32,046 bases of DNA. Origin: a virus. The translations under genes and the position numbers were made by a program. Positions 3,206-30,266 of this stretch are shown here, piece after piece. Under the pieces are notes generated by a model. The model made no database searches. It was not told the DNA's origin and saw only the letters and a list, made by a program, of their open reading frames with translations. The DNA lies in the IMG/VR virus record IMGVR_UViG_3300028800_000237, positions 1 to 32,046 of that record, one strand, 5' to 3'. The number at the start of each line of letters is the position of its first letter. Positions within the stretch are counted from its first letter, which is position 1.

Positions 3206-3936
3206 GCGAGCACGTCATCGACGAGCAGGACACCGAGCGGCCCGAAAGGGCCGTTCTCATTAGGGAGTTCGTCGCGAGCGACATCTCAGTCGAGGGACGC
3301 ACGGTCGACGTGCGTCTCGTCCCCTTCGGCGAGATCGCGCGAGTCGCTGACCCGCCGCGGTTCGAGGTCTATCGGGAGGAGTGGCTGCCGGGCGTGTTCG
3401 ACCATCAGTTGAGCGCGGCAAACCGGATCCATGCGAAATACGGGCACTCCGACACGCTGCTCGACGTGGTCGGCCACGGCATCTCGCTTCGCTCGGAACG
3501 AGCAGACGGCTACCACGTCGCGACGAAGATCCACCAGACGCCGCAGGGCGACACCGTGCTCGAGCTGCTCCGCGACGGCGCGCTGCCCTGCGTTTCGCTC
3601 GAGGCGCGGCCGGTGAAGTCGATGCGTGGCGCGAACGGCGTCGTTCAGCGGATCAAGGCGAACCTCTCCGGCTTCGCGTTCTGCAGGCAGGGAGCATTCG
3701 CCGGCGCGCGCGTCCTCGCGATCCGCGAGGCACACGAGGAGATCGTCGAGGAGACGGTCATCCCAAAAGAGTTCCTTCCAAGCAAGATCGACGACGAGAC
3801 GGTCGAGCGCTGCCGCCGTCTCGGCATCACGTTGCCGCAGCGCTATCAGGCGCAACCCGACGAAACGGACACCCCGGGCGTGCCCGGCACCTCCGAGGAC
3901 GGCACCCGCCAGCCCATCGACGGAAACCCGAACTAG
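3202..3936 (+). CDS. HK97-family prohead protease
   Basis: 244 aa, the serine protease that matures the HK97-type prohead. Start ATG 3202 follows a clear Shine-Dalgarno GGAGG at 3191-3195; the frame is open further upstream, but that part lies inside the portal gene. Candidate catalytic residues are H82 in KYGHSD and S132 in LPCVSLEARP, in the order and context seen in HK97 gp4-like proteases. The last 40 residues are Pro/Thr/Asp rich and probably flexible. It lies between portal and capsid, the canonical position. Confidence 0.92.
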   Translation: MSEHVIDEQDTERPERAVLIREFVASDISVEGRTVDVRLVPFGEIARVADPPRFEVYREEWLPGVFDHQLSAANRIHAKYGHSDTLLDVVGHGISLRSERADGYHVATKIHQTPQGDTVLELLRDGALPCVSLEARPVKSMRGANGVVQRIKANLSGFAFCRQGAFAGARVLAIREAHEEIVEETVIPKEFLPSKIDDETVERCRRLGITLPQRYQAQPDETDTPGVPGTSEDGTRQPIDGNPN

Positions 3937-3946
3937 GAGGCACCAA

Positions 3947-5182
3947 GTGAATGTTCTCGAGACGCGGCTGCAGGGCCGCGTAGATCGCCGAGAGGTGATC
4001 CACGGCAAGCAGGAGGCTCTCCTCGCCGAGCGCGGCGCAGACGGTGAACTGAGCGACACCGACAAGAGCCAGATCGATGTCTACCGCTCCGAGCTCGTCG
4101 AGCTCGACAGCGAGATCGATTCGCTCGCCGCGGACCTCGAAGCGCACAACAAGGCCGCCGAGGTGTCGAAGTCGGTCCGCCGCGCGATGCTCGGCGCAAG
4201 CGACGACATCGACGGTGACGGAGACGGGGTCGTCTACCGGACGATGGCGGCGTACGCCCGCGACGTGATCCTCTCCCGCGAGTCGACGATCTCGCGCAAG
4301 ATCGCCGGCCAGGTCGGCGACAACACCCTGGTCGAAGCGGCACGGTCGCGGCTCCAGCTGCTTCAGCGGACGCCGGCGAACACGCTGTCGTCGAACGTCG
4401 GTGGTTTGCAGCCGCCGCAGTTCATCGACCAGATCTTCCAGGTCATCAACAAGTCACGGCCGATCGTCGACTCGGCCGAGCGGACCACGCTCGAGCGGGG
4501 CACGCTGACGTACCCGGCCGTCACGCAGCGGCCGCTCGTGGCGGTGCAGGCCGCGGAGAAGACGGAGGCCGGGAACCAGGGGATGGTCGTCGGGATGCTG
4601 ACGACGCAGGCGAGCACCTACCTCGGCGGCGGCGATCTGTCGTGGCAGGCGATCAACTGGTCGACCCCGAACGCGCTGCAGCTGTGGTTCAACCTGGCCG
4701 CGGCGTCGTACGCGCTGCTGACGGAGCAGGACGCCGCGACCGTGCTGAGGGACTCCGGCTTCACGCACGACATCGGGTCGCCGATCGGGTCGACGCCGAC
4801 GTTCGCGGACTTCCTGACCGCGGTCGGTGCCGGCTACTCGGCGGTGTTCGCGAACTCGGGCCGGGTCGCGAACACGATCTACATGGCGCCCGACCGTTAC
4901 GGGTACCTGCTCGGCCTCACGTCGGCCGCGTTCTCGCAGTTCGTGAACGTCGCGGGCGACGCGATCGGCCCGCTCAACGTTGTCGTGTCGCGCGGCATGG
5001 ACGCCGGCGAGATCATCGTCGGTGACAGTGCCGGGCTGCTGGTCGCGGAGACGGACGGTGCTCCGGTCGAGCTGAACGTTGTCGAGCCTGCGATCGGCGG
5101 GGTCGAGGTCGGCATCATCGGCGCGTTCGAGGCCGTCGTTGTCGATCCGGGCGCGTTCTCGACGATCACGACAGCGTCGTAG
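3947..5182 (+). CDS. Major capsid protein, HK97 fold
   Basis: 411 aa from GTG 3947, which sits 6 nt after a perfect AGGAGG (3935-3940) that overlaps the protease stop. Residues 1 to about 90 are charged and helical (a coiled-coil scaffolding delta-domain, normally removed by the protease). The rest matches HK97-type capsid proteins: a segment around the motif LQPPQF, the VVDSAERTTL region, a GGG-containing loop before DLSWQAINW, and a beta-rich C-terminal domain ending with FEAVVVDPGAF. The longer upstream frame is a shadow of the protease gene. A hairpin follows the gene directly. Confidence 0.93.
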   Translation: MNVLETRLQGRVDRREVIHGKQEALLAERGADGELSDTDKSQIDVYRSELVELDSEIDSLAADLEAHNKAAEVSKSVRRAMLGASDDIDGDGDGVVYRTMAAYARDVILSRESTISRKIAGQVGDNTLVEAARSRLQLLQRTPANTLSSNVGGLQPPQFIDQIFQVINKSRPIVDSAERTTLERGTLTYPAVTQRPLVAVQAAEKTEAGNQGMVVGMLTTQASTYLGGGDLSWQAINWSTPNALQLWFNLAAASYALLTEQDAATVLRDSGFTHDIGSPIGSTPTFADFLTAVGAGYSAVFANSGRVANTIYMAPDRYGYLLGLTSAAFSQFVNVAGDAIGPLNVVVSRGMDAGEIIVGDSAGLLVAETDGAPVELNVVEPAIGGVEVGIIGAFEAVVVDPGAFSTITTAS

Positions 5183-6487: not shown

Positions 6488-6934
6488 ATGCCGACCGCGA
6501 CGATGGCGCAGATCATGGACGCGCTCGCCGACCTGATCCGCGACGAGATCACCAACGCGACCGAAGTCGACCTTCAGATCGAGCCGCGCGCCGTGCTCTC
6601 ACCGACGCCGCCGACGATCGACATGTACCCGTCCGACCCGTCCGAGGACGAGGCGTATGCCGGCTTCGGCGAGCTCCAAGGCGCCTTCCTGCTCACAGTC
6701 CGCGCGCGCGTCTCGACGGCCGACCAGGAGGCCGGCGAAGACCTGCTGCTCGCGTTCATGGACGACGGCGACCTGTCGATCACCGACGCGATCCTCACCG
6801 ACCCGCTCCTCGACGGGATCGCCCGCGTTGCGCCGCTCGGCCGCACCGGCTACCGCGACTTCCCGATCCCCGGCGGCGAAGGAACCTACCTCGGCTGCCT
6901 CTGGCCGCTCCTCGTCACGAAACGGCCGAGCTGA
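6488..6934 (+). CDS. Probable tail terminator / minor tail protein
   Basis: 148 aa. The N-terminal helix is followed by a PTPPTIDMYPSDP segment and a beta-strand-rich core (LLTVRARVSTADQEAG), resembling actinophage tail-terminator or completion proteins that cap the tail tube at the head side. Position right after the connector supports this. Its stop overlaps the ATG of the first glycan-cassette gene (TGATG), so this is the structural gene into which the non-structural cassette is joined. Confidence 0.6.
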   Translation: MPTATMAQIMDALADLIRDEITNATEVDLQIEPRAVLSPTPPTIDMYPSDPSEDEAYAGFGELQGAFLLTVRARVSTADQEAGEDLLLAFMDDGDLSITDAILTDPLLDGIARVAPLGRTGYRDFPIPGGEGTYLGCLWPLLVTKRPS

Positions 6935-7578
6935 TGACGACCGCTCTCGCCACATCAGAGCGCGTCGATCTACTCGACGGCTGCGCGGAAGCCGGCTGCC
7001 TCGAACTCGCGTGGCGGATGAAGAACCAGCTCGACGTGCCGAAGTACGCGCTCGGCGTCTCGATCATGGCACTCCCAGACTCCCTCGACGAGTGGCGAGC
7101 CGTCCATCGCACCGCCCGCAAGCGCGCCGACCGTTCGCTCCGTCTCGGCTACTCCTTCCAGGAGATCGACCGCTCCCAGTTCAACGACGACCTTCACGCG
7201 ATCAACACGTCGAAGGAGCGCCGGCAGGGACGGCCGATGAGCGCCGGCTACCTCACCAAGCATGTCCACGGAAAGCTCCCCGAGTATCCGTGCGACCGGC
7301 ACAACATCCGCACCTATGGCGTCCTCCACGGGCCGACACTCGTCGCATACATGACGCTGTACCGCGTCGCCGACCTCGGGCTCGTCTCGATGATCCTCGG
7401 CCACGGCGACCACCTCGCCAACGACGTCATGTACCTCCTCTTCGCGGGGATGGTCGAAGACCAGGCGGGCAACGGCGGCGTCCTCTACTACAACCGGCAC
7501 GACTCCGGGACCGAAGGCCTCGTCTACTACAAGGAACGCGTTGGCTTCGCGGCAGGAGATGTCGAGTGGGTGCTGTAA
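6934..7578 (+). CDS. GNAT/FemAB-like acyltransferase
   Basis: 214 aa, soluble. Residues 85-106 contain HAINTSKERRQGRPMSAGY, and the C-terminal third has YYNRHDSGTEGLVYYKERVGF (185-205). Both segments recall GNAT-type N-acyltransferases related to the FemAB fold, where the last helix-strand region binds acyl-CoA or an aminoacyl donor. The expected role is acylating a sugar amine or amino acid; the substrate is unknown. It opens a run of six coupled genes for glycan chemistry between tail-terminator and tail-tube genes. The start overlaps the preceding stop, and the stop overlaps the next ATG (TAATG). Confidence 0.7.
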   Translation: MTTALATSERVDLLDGCAEAGCLELAWRMKNQLDVPKYALGVSIMALPDSLDEWRAVHRTARKRADRSLRLGYSFQEIDRSQFNDDLHAINTSKERRQGRPMSAGYLTKHVHGKLPEYPCDRHNIRTYGVLHGPTLVAYMTLYRVADLGLVSMILGHGDHLANDVMYLLFAGMVEDQAGNGGVLYYNRHDSGTEGLVYYKERVGFAAGDVEWVL

Positions 7579-8048
7579 TGCTCGACGCCGTCCGCGAACG
7601 CAGCGCCGACGTTTACCCGCGCACCTACCTCGCCGGCTGCGAAACCGCGCTCGTTGTGTTCGCCGCAGCGTTCATGGGCGCCCAAGACGCCATATGGATC
7701 CACGACGCCGGACTCACAGCGACCTGCATCGACAACGACCAAGACCGGCTCGACAGGATGCAGAACCTCTACCCCGGCAGCTGGTCGTTCCTCAACGTCG
7801 ACGCCTACGAATGGCTAGAGACCGCGGAAGGCGCATGGGACGTCGTCTCGGTTGACAGCCCGACCGGCCACTTCGAACGCTGCGCCGACCGCATCGGGAT
7901 CTTCTGCAAGCTTGCGCGGCGCCTCGTCGTTCTCGGCATCGGCGTCGACACGCACGTCGAGCCGCCCGAGGGCTGGGAGGTCGTCGAGTGCATCAAGCGC
8001 TCCGACCACGCGGGCGGAGTCTTCTGGGCGGTCTTGTGCAGGACGTGA
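7578..8048 (+). CDS. SAM-dependent methyltransferase-like protein
   Basis: 156 aa. A Rossmann-type pattern is visible: the segment ending WIHDAGLTATCIDNDQDRL (40-58) resembles motif I/II of class I methyltransferases, with the acidic D52 at the end of beta-2, and WDVVSVDSPTG (87-97) resembles motif IV. The usual glycine loop is weak (DAGL), so binding of S-adenosylmethionine is likely but not certain. It is short for the family. Within the cassette it would methylate a sugar or another small acceptor. ATG overlaps the upstream stop as TAATG. Confidence 0.6.
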   Translation: MLDAVRERSADVYPRTYLAGCETALVVFAAAFMGAQDAIWIHDAGLTATCIDNDQDRLDRMQNLYPGSWSFLNVDAYEWLETAEGAWDVVSVDSPTGHFERCADRIGIFCKLARRLVVLGIGVDTHVEPPEGWEVVECIKRSDHAGGVFWAVLCRT

Positions 8049-8674
8049 CCATCGTCTCCTGCCTCTATGGCGATACGCACGACGCTTTTGTCGCGCGGTG
8101 GGCAGCCGGGATAGCTGGCCTGACCGTCGCGCCAGCGGCCGTGATCGTGGCGACTGACAACGAGCGCGATCGCGTCGTCCCCGGCGCAGATGTCTACCGA
8201 TCGGCCCTCAGGTGGCAGCATCCACAAGCCCACTACCTCAACGATGCCGTCGCGCTTTCCGGGACCGAGTGGATCTGGTTCCTAGATATCGACGACATCG
8301 CATTCCCTGACGCGCTTGAAGGCCTCGAGGGCGTGACGGCCGATGTGTGGCAGCTCGGCTACCTGCGCTCGGACGGCGAGGAGTACATCCCGCCGCAGCT
8401 CACCGCGGTCGAGGTGCTCGACTCGAACCGGAACCCATTCGTCGCTGGATCCTGCGTGCGGAGAAAGGCATTCTGGCGTGTCGGGGGATTCCGCGACATC
8501 GCTCTCCAGGACTGGGGACTCTGGCGCGCACTCGCCGCCGAGGGCGCGACGTTCCAGTCGTCAGGCCGCACGCACTTCCACTACATGCGCCACCCGAACA
8601 CACGGGGCGCGGTCGAGCTCGGCCTCGACAGTCGCCCTCACCACATGCGCGAGATGGAAGCCGCTCTTGCTTAG
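8045..8674 (+). CDS. GT-A-type glycosyltransferase (family 2-like), first copy
   Basis: 209 aa from GTG 8045, which overlaps the preceding stop (GTGA); GTG 8036 is an alternative, and the frame is open further upstream. The protein begins with a GT-A-like strand TIVSCLYGD and has a DxD-type metal/nucleotide-sugar site WFLDIDD (D81-D84). Residues 134-160 (VAGSCVRR..VGGFRD..LQDWGLW) match the acceptor-side motif in which GT2 enzymes place the catalytic base (here D156). There is no membrane segment, so it probably acts in the cytoplasm. It differs strongly from the two later glycosyltransferases, so this is not a recent duplication. Confidence 0.75.
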   Translation: MTIVSCLYGDTHDAFVARWAAGIAGLTVAPAAVIVATDNERDRVVPGADVYRSALRWQHPQAHYLNDAVALSGTEWIWFLDIDDIAFPDALEGLEGVTADVWQLGYLRSDGEEYIPPQLTAVEVLDSNRNPFVAGSCVRRKAFWRVGGFRDIALQDWGLWRALAAEGATFQSSGRTHFHYMRHPNTRGAVELGLDSRPHHMREMEAALA

Positions 8675-9323
8675 CCCGGCCCAAGTCAGCGCAGTGATCG
8701 TCACGAAGGGCGACGTCGACCTGGCACCGATCCTCGACTCGTTGATCTTCCCCGACGCGATCGTCTGGGACAACTCGGTCGAGCAGAACGAGATGACCTA
8801 CGGCCGCGTCCTCGGAGCCATGCGCGCACGCAACGAGATCATCTGGTCGCAAGACGACGACATCGTCCACACCCCGGCCGACCAGGCACGCATCGTCGCC
8901 GAATACCAGGCCGGCGTGCTGACCGGCTGCATGTGGCCCGAGTGGTCAGACGGGGCCCGAGCGCAAGGGATCGAAGGCGGCTACGACGATCTCGTCTTCC
9001 CCGGCTCCGGAAGCATCTGCGACCGGTCGCTCTGGACGAGCGCGGTCATGGCGTACTGGGACCGCTATCCGTGCGACGACTTCTTCCGGCTCTGGTCGGA
9101 CACGATCATCGGCGTCATCGCTCCGACAAAGCAGCTCGACATCCGCTTCCAGGCACTCCCCTGCGCCGAGGACATCGACCGGATGTGCAACCTGCCCGAC
9201 GCGATAGCGCTCAAGACCGAGGCGATCGCCAGGGCGCGCGCTGTACGCGACCGCAAGCCATCAGAGCATCAGATCTACATGGCCGAGCTCGGGACGCCGC
9301 ACGGGGAGCACCGGTACTTGTGA
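8667..9323 (+). CDS. Glycosyltransferase-like protein, second copy
   Basis: About 218 aa. The best start is TTG 8667, 6 nt after GGAAG (8656-8660) and overlapping the previous gene by 8 nt; GTG 8694 is an alternative, and the longer upstream frame is a shadow. The N-terminus (VSAVIVTKGD) and IIWSQDDDIVH with D63-D65 give the GT-A strand and DxD signature. A GGYDDLVFPGSGS segment and a SDTIIG region with conserved Asp follow. It resembles glycosyltransferases of unknown specificity common in bacterial glycan clusters. It is coupled to the deacetylase by GTGA overlap. Confidence 0.7.
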   Translation: MLSPAQVSAVIVTKGDVDLAPILDSLIFPDAIVWDNSVEQNEMTYGRVLGAMRARNEIIWSQDDDIVHTPADQARIVAEYQAGVLTGCMWPEWSDGARAQGIEGGYDDLVFPGSGSICDRSLWTSAVMAYWDRYPCDDFFRLWSDTIIGVIAPTKQLDIRFQALPCAEDIDRMCNLPDAIALKTEAIARARAVRDRKPSEHQIYMAELGTPHGEHRYL

Positions 9324-10138
9324 GAGATCTCGCACCGTTCCGCGCCGACGACATCGAGGAGCTCGACGAGCGGTTCCTCGCGCGCGCCGCGAAGGTCGTC
9401 GCGATGGAGGACGTCGTCGCCGGCGAGCGCGCTCCGAACGTGATCGGCCTCCGCCACGACTGCGACGCAGGCCACTCCCTCGCTACCGCGGTCAAGATCG
9501 CACGCTGGGAAGCAGAGCGCGGCTACCGCTCGACCTTCTACGTCCTCCACACGTCGCCGTACTGGGGCTTCCCTCACTTCCGACAGATGCTCGACGAGAT
9601 CGCCGGCTACGGCCACGAGATCGGCATCCACACCGACGCCCTGGCCGAATCTCTGAAGACCGGTCGCGACCCGGGCGTGATCCTCGACGAGGCGCTCGCG
9701 ACGCTCCGCGGCTTCGGCTTCACCGTGCGCGGCGTCGCCGGCCACGGCAACCCGATGTGCAACCGCGACCGGGCTCCCGGCGAGATCACATTCGCGAACG
9801 ACGAGCAGTTCCTCGAGTGCCGCCGCGTGAAGGAAGGTCCAGCCGATCGCGTCATCACCCGCGGCAACGTCAGCCTCCAACTCGCACCGCGGCCGCTCGC
9901 CGACTTCGGCCTCGAGTACGAAGCGCTCTGGTCGGCGTACCCGTTCCCGTGGCGGATCTCTGACTCGGGCGGCAAGTGGCTCAACCCTGGCTTCGACGAG
10001 ACAGCCGACCAGTTCGCCGTGCAGCTCGACGTGACGGAGCTGCCGACCAAGACCGAAGATCCGCGCCAGCTCCACTTCCTCTGGCATCCCGATTGGTGGA
10101 TGAACGCCGTCCGTGACTCTGAGGCGATCGCAGCCTGA
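9320..10138 (+). CDS. Polysaccharide deacetylase-like protein (NodB homology)
   Basis: 272 aa from GTG 9320 (GTGA overlap with the upstream stop). The motif LRHDCDAGH (44-52) corresponds to the NodB motif 1 with metal-binding aspartates, and HEIGIHTD (99-106) gives the H-x4-H metal-binding pair of motif 2. Later GVAGHGNP and the C-terminal LHFLWHPDWW (H near the end) match the remaining active-site segments. These enzymes remove N- or O-acetyl groups from sugar chains. No signal peptide is present, so it probably works on an intracellular or nucleotide-linked sugar and not on the host cell wall. It may act together with the acyltransferase at 6934. Confidence 0.82.
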   Translation: MRDLAPFRADDIEELDERFLARAAKVVAMEDVVAGERAPNVIGLRHDCDAGHSLATAVKIARWEAERGYRSTFYVLHTSPYWGFPHFRQMLDEIAGYGHEIGIHTDALAESLKTGRDPGVILDEALATLRGFGFTVRGVAGHGNPMCNRDRAPGEITFANDEQFLECRRVKEGPADRVITRGNVSLQLAPRPLADFGLEYEALWSAYPFPWRISDSGGKWLNPGFDETADQFAVQLDVTELPTKTEDPRQLHFLWHPDWWMNAVRDSEAIAA

Positions 10139-10893
10139 TGGCATCTCTCTGGTTCGTCGTCCCGGCACACGGGAGGCCGCAGCTCGCCCGCATCTGCCTC
10201 ACGCAGCTCCGCCGCACATGCGACGCGCTGTGCGCTGAAGGCGTCGCGGCGACCGCCGTGGTCGTCGGCGATGACGAGAACCTCGACACCGCTCGCGAGC
10301 TCGGCTTCGGGACTGTCCGCCGCGCCAACGACTTCGTCTCACGGAAGTTCAACGACGGCATCCAGCTCGCACTCGACGAGCGCGTCAACCCGTGGCCGGC
10401 CGACTACGTCGTCCCGTGCGGATCTGACGACTGGGTCGACCACCGCCTCTTCCTCGACCTCCCGGGCCCCGACACTGTCGTCGGTTTCCAGCGGATGTCG
10501 TTCGTGCGCGAGGACGGCCGCGAGATCGTCACGACGTTCCTGAACTATGAGGGGGGCGCCGGCATCCGCGTCTACCCTCGCCAGCTTCTCGAGCCGCTCG
10601 GCTACCGGCCCGCCGACGAAGACCGACATCGTGCGTGCGACACGAGCATCCTCACGAATGTCAGGCTCCGTCACCGCGACCGGATGCGTGTCGAGCATCG
10701 GCACATCCACGACCGCCAGATCATCGACTGGAAGAGCGGCGGTACACAGCTGAACTCGTACCGGCAGGTGACTGCGCTGCGCCGCTCACGCGAGCCTGGC
10801 GATCCTTTCGTCGAGCTCGCCGGCGTCTACCCGGACGAGGCGCTCGCCGAGATGCGCGCGCACTACTTGGGCGCAGAGCTGGTCGCGGCATGA
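10138..10893 (+). CDS. Glycosyltransferase-like protein, third copy
   Basis: 251 aa. The N-terminal WFVVPAHGRP strand, VVVGDDEN (41-48) and YVVPCGSDDWVDHRLF (90-105) form a typical GT-A nucleotide-sugar site; the GSDD at 95-98 is the DxD-equivalent. The C-terminal half contains GAGIRVYPR and a His/Arg-rich stretch (RMRVEHRHIHDRQ). There is no membrane anchor. ATG overlaps the deacetylase stop (TGATG), and the stop overlaps the start of the next small gene (ATGA). It closes the six-gene cassette. Confidence 0.75.
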   Translation: MASLWFVVPAHGRPQLARICLTQLRRTCDALCAEGVAATAVVVGDDENLDTARELGFGTVRRANDFVSRKFNDGIQLALDERVNPWPADYVVPCGSDDWVDHRLFLDLPGPDTVVGFQRMSFVREDGREIVTTFLNYEGGAGIRVYPRQLLEPLGYRPADEDRHRACDTSILTNVRLRHRDRMRVEHRHIHDRQIIDWKSGGTQLNSYRQVTALRRSREPGDPFVELAGVYPDEALAEMRAHYLGAELVAA

Positions 10894-11135
10894 CGCACGG
10901 TCGTTACCTCGTCACCGGGAGCCGCGAGTACCGCGGCCACAAGCCCGGAGCCACCTTCGAGGCAGCGCTCGAACCCGGTCCCGAGCGTCGCGCGATCGAG
11001 CGTGGCGCCATCCAACTTCTCGAGCGGGTCACCCCCTCGATCGAGCCTGGCAGCTACCAGCTGCCGGAACCCTGGCCGCCCGAGGCCAGCGAAACGCAGT
11101 CAACCGGGGCGCCGCAAAGCGCCTCTCGCATCTGA
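10890..11135 (+). CDS. Small hypothetical protein before the tail tube gene
   Basis: 81 aa. ATG overlaps the preceding stop (ATGA), and the coding frame has the G/C third-position pattern of its neighbours. The N-terminus reads THGRYLVTGSREYRGHKPG, reminiscent of short phage proteins that begin with a compact beta domain; the C-terminus is Pro/Ser/Thr rich. No known domain was recognised. It could be a minor structural or chaperone protein, as it directly precedes the tube gene. Confidence 0.6.
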   Translation: MTHGRYLVTGSREYRGHKPGATFEAALEPGPERRAIERGAIQLLERVTPSIEPGSYQLPEPWPPEASETQSTGAPQSASRI

Positions 11136-11145
11136 AGGAGGCGAG

Positions 11146-11565
11146 GTGACGTACACCAAAGAGATCGCGCTCTACGACAAGATCACAATCGACGGCGAGG
11201 ACGTGTCGAACCTGTTCAAGTCGTTCGCGCTCAACCTGACCGATGCCCAGCAGGACGCCTCGGGGTTCTCAGAAACAGGCTTCGACGAGACACTCCAGGG
11301 CAACCGTGCAGCATCAGCCACGGCCGACATCTTCTACACGCCGGAAGGGCACGCGATCCTGTACCCGCTCTACAGGGACAGGGTCACGTTCGAGCTCGAA
11401 TGGCAGCCCGACGGCCTGATCGACGCGACGCGTGAGGTCTGGCACGGCAACGTGAAGATGTTCGGCTACCCGCCCGGCGCAAGCCGCGGCGACGTACGCG
11501 TCATGAGCGGCATCACGTTCGCGGCCGCAGACGCACTCGGGATCACAGCCGACGCGGCCACCTGA
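11146..11565 (+). CDS. Major tail (tube) protein
   Basis: 139 aa from GTG 11146, preceded by AAGGAGG (11136-11142). The sequence DKITIDGEDVSNLFKSFALNLTDAQQDASGF, followed by alternating beta strands and a GFDETLQGNR loop, is the pattern of small siphovirus tube proteins, which stack as hexamers around the tape measure. Position immediately before the tail assembly chaperone gene and the tape measure fits. The upstream in-frame extension belongs to the previous gene. Confidence 0.8.
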   Translation: MTYTKEIALYDKITIDGEDVSNLFKSFALNLTDAQQDASGFSETGFDETLQGNRAASATADIFYTPEGHAILYPLYRDRVTFELEWQPDGLIDATREVWHGNVKMFGYPPGASRGDVRVMSGITFAAADALGITADAAT

Positions 11566-11603: not shown

Positions 11604-12128
11604 GTGGCCGCTGAAACCGGATTCAAGATCGACGGGAGCCTCCTCGAGGCGCCTTCGATCGACACGTTCACGATGGACGAGGCGCAGGTCTTGTACGACT
11701 ACTCCGGCCTCACGCTCGAGGACTTCGCCCGGCCGCCCGACACGTCCGAAGAGGAATTCGAGGAGCTGATCAGGCCCAAGATCAAGAACCCCGGATTCGT
11801 CAGGGCGCTCATGCACATCGCCTACCAGCGCGCGAACCCGAAGCAGAACCCGTCACGGGTCAAGGCGCTGATCGGGCAGGCGAACATGATCGGTGCGCTC
11901 GAGCACCTCGGCGCAACCGACGACGATCAGGAGGGCGACGACGGCCACCCCCCGGCGTCGACGACCGAGCTCGAGCCGTCATCGCTGAGAAGCTCGGTCG
12001 TCTCGAACGGGACTTCTGGGGACGATTCACAGAGGAGTTCGGACGAACAGGCCGACCGGCTCGAGAATACTGGGACGCCCGAGTCGGACACGTCCTCCAC
12101 CTCCGACCGCGAGATCTCGGCGACGTGA
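11604..12128 (+). CDS. Tail assembly chaperone, zero-frame product
   Basis: 174 aa from GTG 11604. Residues 1-110 are a plausible folded helical domain (DEAQVLYDYSGLTLEDFARPP... RVKALIGQANMIGALEHLG) like the first tail assembly chaperone of siphoviruses, which binds the tape measure during tail assembly. After about residue 112 the zero frame turns into a Ser/Thr-rich stretch that looks non-coding, while the -1 frame becomes protein-like up to 12190. A slippery heptamer lies exactly at the switch (11948-11954). The functional products are probably a short form and a longer frameshifted form. Confidence 0.8.
   Translation: MAAETGFKIDGSLLEAPSIDTFTMDEAQVLYDYSGLTLEDFARPPDTSEEEFEELIRPKIKNPGFVRALMHIAYQRANPKQNPSRVKALIGQANMIGALEHLGATDDDQEGDDGHPPASTTELEPSSLRSSVVSNGTSGDDSQRSSDEQADRLENTGTPESDTSSTSDREISAT
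11948..11954 (+). promoter_or_regulatory. Slippery heptamer for -1 ribosomal frameshift
   Basis: The sequence C CCC CCG fits X XXY YYZ in the zero frame of the tail assembly chaperone gene (codons CCC at 11949, CCG at 11952). A -1 slip re-pairs both tRNAs on CCC CCC and continues with GGC at 11954. The -1 frame then runs open to TAG at 12188-12190, next to the ATG of the following gene. Confidence 0.7.
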
Positions 12129-24521: not shown

Positions 24522-24703
24522 ACGAGGAAGCCGTGGACGCTGTCGAGCAAGAGTTCCTAGAGATCTTCTGGCTCCTGTACCCGGAAGTCACCTGGACGAT
24601 CAGGCCACGGAGCAAGAGGAACGCGCCGCCCACGTCGCGGCAGATCGTCCGGCGCATCGCCGCGCCAGATGAGGCCCATGCGCTCGCCGGGAAGGCTGCC
24701 TGA
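24518..24703 (+). CDS. Small hypothetical protein overlapping the integrase tail
   Basis: 61 aa, GTG start overlapping the previous stop. N-terminal acidic helix (EAVDAVEQEFLEIFWLLYPE) and basic C-terminus (RPRSKRNAPPTSRQIVRR). It overlaps the antisense integrase gene over 147 bp, so one of the two may be shorter in reality; the position in the coupled series favours a real gene. Confidence 0.5.
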   Translation: MNEEAVDAVEQEFLEIFWLLYPEVTWTIRPRSKRNAPPTSRQIVRRIAAPDEAHALAGKAA

Positions 24704-26041
24704 CGCATGCGGCCAGACCACAACGCACTCGAGGCCAGCGGCCAACAGCCTCCGCCGGTGAGCTACATCAAGCCGCGGCCAGGCTTCCACGAGATCACCG
24801 GGGATCATGTCGCCGAGTGGCGCGGAGCGCACGCGGAGATCTTCGACGGCTCGAACGGCGACGTCGACGCGTTCGCGTCTGACAGCGAGTCCAACTTCGA
24901 AGGCGTCTTTGCCTGCGATCGCGAGAGCGTCAGTGCTGATGTACGCGCCGAGGTCTCCTCGCGCCACCTCCAGCTCTGCACCGGCAGCCGTCAGAGCGCT
25001 GCTCGTTCGTGCTGCCTCGACGGCGATGTTCTCGCCCTGGAGAGCAGCCAGGAACGCTTCCTCGACGAGCGGATCGACGACTCGCGCGAGGACTGTGACA
25101 GGGCGCGGGCATTTGCCGGCGGCGTGGATGCGGCGACAGCTGTACATCACGAGCCGGTCGCGCTTGCGGTCGCGCATGGAGTCGACCTTCATCAGGTAGC
25201 GGCAGCCGGAGCATCGAATCAGCCCCGAGAGAAGCGCCGGAGGCCCGACGCGAGCGCTGGGAAGGCCGCGAGCCATCTGCGCGGCGCGCCACTCGCGCTC
25301 GCTGACGATCGCTTCATGCGCTTCTGCTGCGATGAACTCGCCCGAGCGTGCTTCGCCGAGGTAGACGCGGTTGCGGATCAGCGCGTTGACGGATCCAGGG
25401 CTCCACTGAAGGTTGCCGTACGGCGTCACAACCGCTGCGTCTGTGAGGAACTCCCCGAGCGCACGCCAGCCGACGCCGGCCGCGCGTTTACGGAAGAGCT
25501 CGGCGATCACCGGCGCGTCTTCGCTGGGCTCAAGCCGGCCGTCCTTGAGGCGTCTGTAGCCGGTCGGCGTCTTCGACGCGATGTGCACGCCTCGGTCGAC
25601 CGCCCGTTCGCGTGCGTCGCTCCAGTCGGCACGTCGGCGGTCGAGTTCCCATTCGGCGATCGCGCCGAGCATGTGCGCGATGAGCTTGCCGTTCGGCGTC
25701 GCCATGTCGAGACCGACGTCCACCGCAACGATGTTCCAACCGCCGGCGAGCGCTCGCTCGAGCAGCCTGCCGAGGTCAGACAGCGATCGAGTGATCCTGT
25801 CGAGCTTCGCCGCGATGATCCCATCGGCTTCCCCACGATCGACGGCCGCGAGTGCTGCTTGGAGGCCAGGGCGGTTCAGGGTCGAGCCGGGCTTGTCGAG
25901 GTCTTCCTGCCATCCGACGATCGTGTGGCCGCGCGCCCGCGCGTACGCCTCGACTTGGTCGCGCTGCACCTGGGGGCTGATGAAGCTGTCGCCGGCGCGA
26001 CCACCGACGCGGCTCACCCTGACGCAGCCGATCAGCCTCAC
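24557..26041 (-). CDS. int: Large serine integrase (site-specific recombinase)
   Basis: 494 aa from GTG 26041, which overlaps the stop of an upstream leftward micro-ORF. Catalytic S10 lies in GCVRVSRVGG with R8; LDRITRSLSDLGRLL is the typical second motif of the catalytic domain, followed by a recombinase domain (TPTGYRRLKDGRLEPSED.. PVIAELFRKRA). CSGC (about 285) and CRR..GKCPRP (about 312-322) form the zinc ribbon. Such integrases join attP to attB without host IHF. The C-terminal 25 residues after GLIWRGDAPDDL are an unusual extension that covers the opposite-strand small gene. Placed antisense among early genes. Confidence 0.95.
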   Translation of the reverse strand: MRLIGCVRVSRVGGRAGDSFISPQVQRDQVEAYARARGHTIVGWQEDLDKPGSTLNRPGLQAALAAVDRGEADGIIAAKLDRITRSLSDLGRLLERALAGGWNIVAVDVGLDMATPNGKLIAHMLGAIAEWELDRRRADWSDARERAVDRGVHIASKTPTGYRRLKDGRLEPSEDAPVIAELFRKRAAGVGWRALGEFLTDAAVVTPYGNLQWSPGSVNALIRNRVYLGEARSGEFIAAEAHEAIVSEREWRAAQMARGLPSARVGPPALLSGLIRCSGCRYLMKVDSMRDRKRDRLVMYSCRRIHAAGKCPRPVTVLARVVDPLVEEAFLAALQGENIAVEAARTSSALTAAGAELEVARGDLGAYISTDALAIAGKDAFEVGLAVRRERVDVAVRAVEDLRVRSAPLGDMIPGDLVEAWPRLDVAHRRRLLAAGLECVVVWPHASGSLPGERMGLIWRGDAPDDLPRRGRRVPLAPWPDRPGDFRVQEPEDL

Positions 26042-29520: not shown

Positions 29521-30266
29521 CCAGCTCGAGCACACAGCTCGTCGCCTACCACGGCGACGAAGCCGCCAAACAGAAGGCGCTCGCACTCATCGAAGCGCAT
29601 CAGGCCGCAGATCAGATCATCCAAGGCCGCTACTGGCAGGAAGACGAAGACGGCATCTTCCGCGGCTGCGCCGTCGGCTGCCTGCTCGAGGATCCCGACG
29701 GCGGCCACGAACGATACGAGACGGAGTTCGGAATCCCCGTGCAGCTCGCATGGCTCGAGGACGGCATCTTCGAAGCCCTCGACGCCGATGTCGCCAAGCA
29801 GTGGCCCGTACGATTCATGGGCGCGATCCAGGTCGGATCTGATCTCGCCCCGGTCTGGCCGCGCTTCGCCGTCTGGATGCTCACCGATCCGACGCACGGC
29901 CTCGAGAACGTCACCGACAAGGACGACATCAAGGCTGTCTGCCGGCAGATCGCAGCCGCTTACGAGCGGATCGCCGCCGGCGACACTCTCACGAGCGACG
30001 AAGAGCAAGCCGTTACCGACGCTGCGCGGGATGCGCGGGCTGCGTGGGCTGCGTGGGATGCGCGGGCTGCGTGGGCTGCGTGGGATGCGCGGGCTGCGCG
30101 GGCTGCGTGGGATGCGCGGGCTGCGTGGGATGCGCGGGCTGCGCGGGCTGCGCGGGCTGCGCGGGCTGCGCGGGCTGCGTGGGCTGCGTGGGCTGCGCGG
30201 GATGCGCGGGATGCGCTCGTTACGGCCTCATCGGACAAGCTCATCGAGCTGCTCGAGGCTGCGTAG
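29517..30266 (+). CDS. Phage protein with Ala-Arg/Trp-Ala tandem-repeat tail
   Basis: 249 aa from GTG 29517 (GTGA overlap); the longer frame upstream is a shadow. Residues 10-150 form a globular part with [38 protein letters not shown] and [12 protein letters not shown], a combination found in phage and gut-bacterial proteins of unknown function. Residues 170-232 are 21 tripeptide units A-(R/W)-(A/D), encoded by a 9-bp tandem repeat, which would form a long amphipathic, Arg/Trp-rich helix that could bind DNA or membranes. The short end ([12 protein letters not shown]) is helical. Confidence 0.72.
30024..30212 (+). repeat. Tandem repeat, 21 copies of a 9-bp unit
   Basis: Unit GCG-YGG-GMT: only the first base of codon 2 (CGG/TGG) and the second base of codon 3 (GCT/GAT) vary. 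It stays open in all three forward frames and in the reverse direction. It encodes A-(R/W)-(A/D) units. The array is almost free of other substitutions, so it is likely to expand or shrink by replication slippage. Confidence 0.95.

Follow-up and report, generated by a model that had tools for sequence, protein, structure and literature searches.

The window analyzed here, a 32,046-base virus record from IMG/VR (IMGVR_UViG_3300028800_000237), represents a single uncultured phage known from sequence. Terminase, portal, and major capsid genes occupy its left part, followed rightward by the tape measure gene and then by an exonuclease and other DNA-metabolism genes. Within the structural operon, between the tail terminator and tail tube genes, lies a cassette of six open reading frames (ORFs; 6934-10893), denoted A to F, which includes predicted glycosyltransferase genes. 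The original prediction had described this stretch as a translationally coupled glycan-modification set flanked by a tail-terminator-like gene and the tail tube region, and both the set and its flanks were confirmed: all six ORFs were recovered, with starts and stops that overlap by 1 to 8 bases or abut, and both neighbors matched tail proteins of a cultured phage (see below).

Organization of the cassette and its borders

All genes of the cassette are read on the forward strand. Gene A (6934..7578) encodes a putative GNAT/FemAB-like acyltransferase of 214 residues, and its start is coupled to the upstream gene through TGATGA. It is joined through TAATG to gene B (7578..8048), encoding a small class I methyltransferase-fold protein of 156 residues, which in turn leads through GTGA into gene C (8045..8674), an optional member encoding a predicted GT-A glycosyltransferase of 209 residues. 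Gene D (8667..9323) overlaps C by 8 bp and specifies a GT-A-like glycosyltransferase of about 218 residues with a QDDD motif; its TTG start at 8667 is backed by the alignment of relatives, an alternative being GTG at 8694. A further GTGA junction connects D to gene E (9320..10138), the product of which (272 residues) has a predicted NodB/CE4-like deacetylase fold, and TGATG connects E to gene F (10138..10893), encoding a predicted GT-A glycosyltransferase of 251 residues with a GSDD motif, the best-conserved member of the set. Purifying selection acts on all six genes, with ratios of nonsynonymous to synonymous substitutions (dN/dS) of 0.01 to 0.36 in all comparisons but one, namely that of B with WIN-L002 (0.77, at 35% identity). 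Given these low values and the recurrence of the genes, in order, across many contigs, the cassette is more than a chance assemblage. As judged by hydropathy only, no transmembrane- or signal-like segment stands out in any of the six proteins, in agreement with the predicted lack of signal peptides.

The borders were defined by comparison with Rhodococcus phage Shagrat, which, like the window, carries a tail terminator (gp14), a small protein (gp16), and a major tail protein (gp17). The left border is the tail terminator gene (6488..6934; profile match to gp14, E = 6e-6), and the right border is the gene for the major tail (tube) protein of 139 residues (11146..11565; gp17 profile, E = 2e-21; tblastn, E = 2e-3), a candidate glycan acceptor. 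Unlike the window, Shagrat has no cassette genes between terminator and tube; the 109-residue gp15 (L088:7410-7739) is found in that place, so that Shagrat serves as an empty-site comparison. The small conserved gene g81 (10890..11135), which links F to the tail tube gene and follows F in relatives, has its counterpart in gp16 (profile match, E = 9e-5). Since a similar gene adjoins the tube gene in the cassette-free Shagrat, g81 was dropped from the glycan set and probably belongs to the tail module. The second candidate acceptor is the major capsid protein (3626..5182, start uncertain), identified by matches to the major head protein family PHROG 2263 (E = 4e-34) and to the major capsid protein of Dylan, a phage of cluster O, the Corndog group (profile, E = 2e-21).

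Predicted functions of the encoded proteins

Profile searches with the single window proteins A to F returned almost no database match, C excepted, and we therefore assembled families of 10 to 26 relatives per gene for alignments and profiles. With these and with structure models, C, D, and F were assigned to glycosyltransferase families, B to a methyltransferase fold, and E to a CE4-like fold, rather than to unrelated folds. C matches the glycosyltransferase family PHROG 9549 (E = 7e-14) and has invariant D81, D83, and D84. For D, PF00535 (Glycos_transf_2) was detected in 6 of 18 members, the best match (E = 3e-5) being that of a relative, and Q62-D65, including D63-D65, are invariant. The F profile matches the solved glycosyltransferase 3bcv (E = 5.5e-4), and PF00535 was found in 3 of its 26 members (best E = 3e-4, again a relative); G95, S96, D97, and D98 are conserved, and the median identity of F to its relatives is 63%. 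The DxD-type sites originally quoted (D81-D84 in C, D63-D65 in D, and GSDD 95-98 in F) were exact in position and conserved in relatives, and the alignments support C, D, and F as GT2-type/GT-A-like glycosyltransferases with a conserved DxD motif. Profile-profile comparisons among the three were negative or weak, and we consequently do not claim that they are mutually related.

The remaining three proteins were assigned mainly through structure models and family alignments. The AlphaFold model of B (predicted local distance difference test score [pLDDT], 95) yielded 254 PDB matches with E values below 1e-3 in Foldseek (best 1.2e-6), and among the matches listed nearly all were S-adenosylmethionine (SAM) methyltransferases, which supports a class I methyltransferase fold for the modeled protein. 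For the model of E (pLDDT 94), every Foldseek PDB match below 1e-3 was a CE4 protein (best 1.4e-4, probability 1.0), supporting a NodB-homology fold. This likeness was seen by fold search alone: the E profile gave no match to PDB sequences, Pfam returned a weak match in 2 of 24 members (best 0.06), and the closest viral model is that of an uncharacterised protein of an uncultured phage. In the alignment, R45-H46-D47-x-D49, H77, H99, H104, H142, and H256 are invariant, so that E, like the CE4/NodB chitin and peptidoglycan deacetylases whose fold it shares, keeps the Asp pair of RHDxD, the GHEIGxH motif, and the first His of HxxxH. Gene A was tentatively assigned through PF13480 (Acetyltransf_6): at E < 0.1, matches were obtained for 5 of the 22 relatives (best 1.4e-4), whereas A of the window itself gave none; the 22-member alignment contains invariant columns.

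Distribution and variable composition

The cassette belongs to a lineage made up of this phage of soil actinobacteria and dozens of relatives that are likewise uncultured. Using tblastn, we found no match to A, D, E, or F in 50,697 phage records, and C was found there in mycobacteriophages only, those listed being of the cluster J type, for example Baka and Optimus. The cassette is common among contigs of uncultured viruses; in the soil actinophage lineage, about 30 contigs besides the window carry it between terminator and tube. Recovery depended on the query, the scan for A loci yielding none with a single sequence and 40 with an alignment. Because baits made of cassette proteins favor contigs that carry the cassette, the capsid protein was used as a second bait. 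All six capsid-bait contigs extending beyond the tail terminator begin the cassette there (L041, L042, L044, L045, L047, and L049), with at least the first cassette genes covered, and no empty site was seen in this lineage among the contigs examined. With respect to the host, only one contig from a metagenome-assembled genome, that of an Actinomycetota bacterium (L037), carries A, B, E, and F with the same virion genes. A contig from a Myxococcales metagenome-assembled genome (L038) has only F and was left out of the host inference.

The gene order in the window is A B C D E F. The original prediction had called for a search for the same six-gene order in other phages; the cassette recurs, but the six genes do not form a fixed unit. 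Membership was scored in 29 distinct contigs that are long enough to hold the set and were selected by the presence of A. All of these have E, 28 have F, 27 have B, 22 have D, and 9 have C. The orders seen repeatedly were A B D E F in 11 contigs, B A C D E F in 8, A B E F in 7, and A C D E F in 2. The core of A, E, and F is thus nearly constant, whereas B, C, and D can be absent or replaced. In L020, the position of D is occupied by a gene for a SAM methyltransferase whose GxGxG motif is intact, and L028 has a similar gene, also with GxGxG; in L064, the same position holds a gene for a GT-B-like glycosyltransferase, a near-identical copy of which is present in L066. Hence, the elaboration enzymes vary while the core stays.

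Sequence divergence points to two submodules within the set. The divergences of A, D, and E are tightly correlated (r = 0.66-0.80; A-E, r = 0.66), whereas that of F tracks the tail tube and capsid proteins (r = 0.62 and 0.53) more than A or E (0.36 and 0.44). A natural split of the cassette is seen in one contig (L031:466-2841), in which an A-B-D-E block has been relocated between the terminase and portal genes, while F and g81 are still near the tail genes. In a second lineage (L012, L072, and L079), the order F-A-(B)-D-E immediately follows a major head gene of PHROG 267, the product of which has no detectable sequence similarity to the capsid protein of the window. The relocated block and the placement in the second lineage show that the set moves en bloc, with tube or capsid genes as its usual neighbors. 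The contig L032 carries two F-like genes after a PHROG 267 head gene (L032:5162-10319). In the same stretch, the pair is followed by what were read by eye as genes for a further glycosyltransferase, a hydrolase of the SGNH type, and a protein resembling nucleotide-sugar epimerases.

Additional genes are found inside the cassette in several relatives. Between E and F, L065 encodes a collagen-repeat, tail-fibre-like protein (L065:8162-9316; PF01391, E = 5e-29), and other repetitive, fibre-like proteins occupy this position in L020, L021, L027, L029, and L077; such proteins are possible glycan acceptors. Short inserts with HNH-homing-endonuclease-like frames, read by eye, lie in the cassettes of L008 (approximately 8804-9304) and L010 (approximately 6500-6860). 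In L071 (approximately 10434-11453), the F frame seems to be broken by a g81-like stretch, which could stem from recombination or from a chimeric assembly.

Possible role of the cassette

Glycan genes among virion genes have precedents in mycobacteriophages. Corndog-type phages carry an O-methyltransferase gene and three transferase genes between the portal and protease genes (PMC4351075), and in cluster J phages, the capsid gene is followed by several glycosyltransferase, methyltransferase, and kinase genes, the roles of which were termed unknown (PMC3706429). Glycosylated capsid and tail tube proteins have been reported for the mycobacteriophages Che8, Corndog, and Myrna, according to papers citing that work (Freeman 2023, cited in PMC12363180 and PMC12619734). 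Like the window, cluster J phages (Omega, Baka, and Thibault) group glycosyltransferase and SAM methyltransferase genes among virion genes, in their case between the major capsid and head-tail connector genes, and C is homologous to Baka gp14 (31% identity; profile E = 3e-17). Unlike the window, they have no annotated deacetylase or acyltransferase, and A, B, D, E, and F have no detectable homologue among the Baka proteins tested. Cluster O phages (Corndog gp35-38 and Dylan gp32-35) likewise combine O-methyltransferase and glycosyltransferase genes in the virion operon, and their capsid protein and the one encoded in the window are homologues; their glycan genes, in contrast, lack the deacetylase-acyltransferase pair, and hhalign detected no match between A-F and Dylan gp32-35. 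The homology comparison of the glycosyltransferases covered Dylan and Baka. Judged by its content and position, the cassette appears to work like the Corndog and cluster J systems without belonging to the same gene family, with the deacetylase-acyltransferase core as the new part.

Combining the fold classes and motifs, the conservation of A, E, and F, and the position in two unrelated virion backgrounds, we consider it likely that the cassette constitutes a late-expressed cytoplasmic pathway that glycosylates the phage's own abundant virion proteins. The acceptors would be the tail tube and/or major capsid proteins, plus the fibre where one is encoded. As the constant and best-conserved glycosyltransferase, F would most plausibly carry out the first transfer, placing the first sugar on the protein with the use of host nucleotide sugars; the epimerase and nucleotidyltransferase families tested gave no match in the record, so that host precursors such as uridine diphosphate N-acetylglucosamine (UDP-GlcNAc) would be used. 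D, and C where present, would lengthen the chain, and B or its substitutes would add methyl groups. E may strip the N-acetyl group from an amino sugar, the freed amine then being re-acylated by A with another acyl group. The full version of this scheme, a mobile virion-glycan pathway in which the F, E, and A core exchanges N-acetyl for another acyl group while B, C, D, and their substitutes diversify the particle surface, is offered as a tentative proposal.

Several observations weigh against the virion-glycosylation pathway. The Pfam matches behind the acyltransferase assignment of A are weak and confined to a minority of members. The B family has an LFAAAFxGxND consensus where the GxGxG SAM-binding loop of motif I is expected. 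In E, unlike in CE4/NodB esterases, the second His of the HxxxH metal motif is missing, being replaced by L108; its TM-scores to known CE4 enzymes are low (0.36-0.42), and a CE4 pseudoenzyme is among its Foldseek matches. The folds and families originally predicted for the six proteins were thus upheld, that of A tentatively, but with one canonical metal-binding His missing from E and the usual SAM loop missing from B, the deacetylase and methyltransferase activities must be regarded as unproven. Furthermore, A-F have no detectable relation to the glycan genes of the Corndog cluster, the virion-protein acceptor is inferred from gene position, the proteins named being candidates only, and genes inserted into structural operons sometimes act elsewhere.

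Glycosylation might also be real without the acyl exchange, an account that overlaps with virion glycosylation and that we regard as a genuine, if less than even, possibility. E would then be an inactive CE4-like sugar-binding scaffold, or A an aminoacyl or acyl transferase acting on protein or on another sugar position. The incomplete HxxxH motif of E, its distant CE4 likeness, and the pseudoenzyme among its matches agree with this alternative. By contrast, E keeps the RHDxD Asp pair, other invariant His residues might complete the metal site, and A and E co-occur in 29/29 contigs (A by selection) with correlated divergence (r = 0.66). The pairing underlying the original suggestion of an acetyl-for-acyl swap is firmer than that prediction could tell, although the swap itself is unproven.

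Alternatively, the cassette could remodel host surface glycans (teichoic acid, arabinogalactan, or capsule), resulting in a superinfection block, less adsorption to debris, or lysogenic conversion. Serotype-changing phage glycosyltransferases are established, according to papers citing a review by Markine-Goriaynoff, and the record encodes a large serine recombinase with Resolvase, Recombinase, and zinc-ribbon domains (24557-26041, minus strand), so that the phage is probably temperate. We nevertheless consider this role unlikely: by hydropathy, the proteins lack membrane- or signal-like segments, the cassette includes no flippase or membrane-linked transferase, it lies within the structural operon, adjoining a tube or a capsid gene in the two lineages, and a collagen-like gene sits inside the cassette of L065. 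Placement next to the tail tube gene or, in the second lineage, next to an unrelated capsid gene favors action on the virion over action on the host surface, the two options left by the original prediction, with the acceptor itself still deduced from position. Evasion of restriction through sugar and acyl hypermodification of the bases of the phage DNA, a kind of modification for which viral glycosyltransferases are known (Pyle 2024, cited in PMC12619734), is improbable, given that the cassette is grouped with virion rather than replication genes and that the thymidylate-synthase family PF00303 is absent from the record, which is possibly a fragment, in a search with working controls (a Tet_JBP search had no working control and was uninformative).

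In this lineage of uncultured soil actinophages, the cassette looks like a fixed part of the core, and it has also been transferred en bloc to a phage group whose capsid is unrelated. Actinophage virion glycosylation is documented in a few mycobacteriophages, in which it shields particles from antibodies. Soil is remote from vertebrate antibodies, and the role there must accordingly be a different one, such as stability, adsorption to surfaces or host glycans, or protection. From the obligate pairing of deacetylase and acyltransferase, a specific non-acetyl modification of an amino sugar is predicted, and although the general kind of system is already known, the cassette is enzymatically richer than known mycobacteriophage virion glycosylation.

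Two further features of the record were recorded outside the cassette. The product of the gene following the tail tube gene (11604-12128) ends in a strikingly Ser/Thr-rich C-terminal stretch of approximately 60 residues, which could be a glycan acceptor or merely disordered. Farther downstream, a 9-bp tandem repeat, GCTGCGCGG, is present in approximately 22 copies (30021-30216) and is read as a Val/Ala-Gly-Cys repeat within an ORF that is joined to a protein resembling replication initiators.

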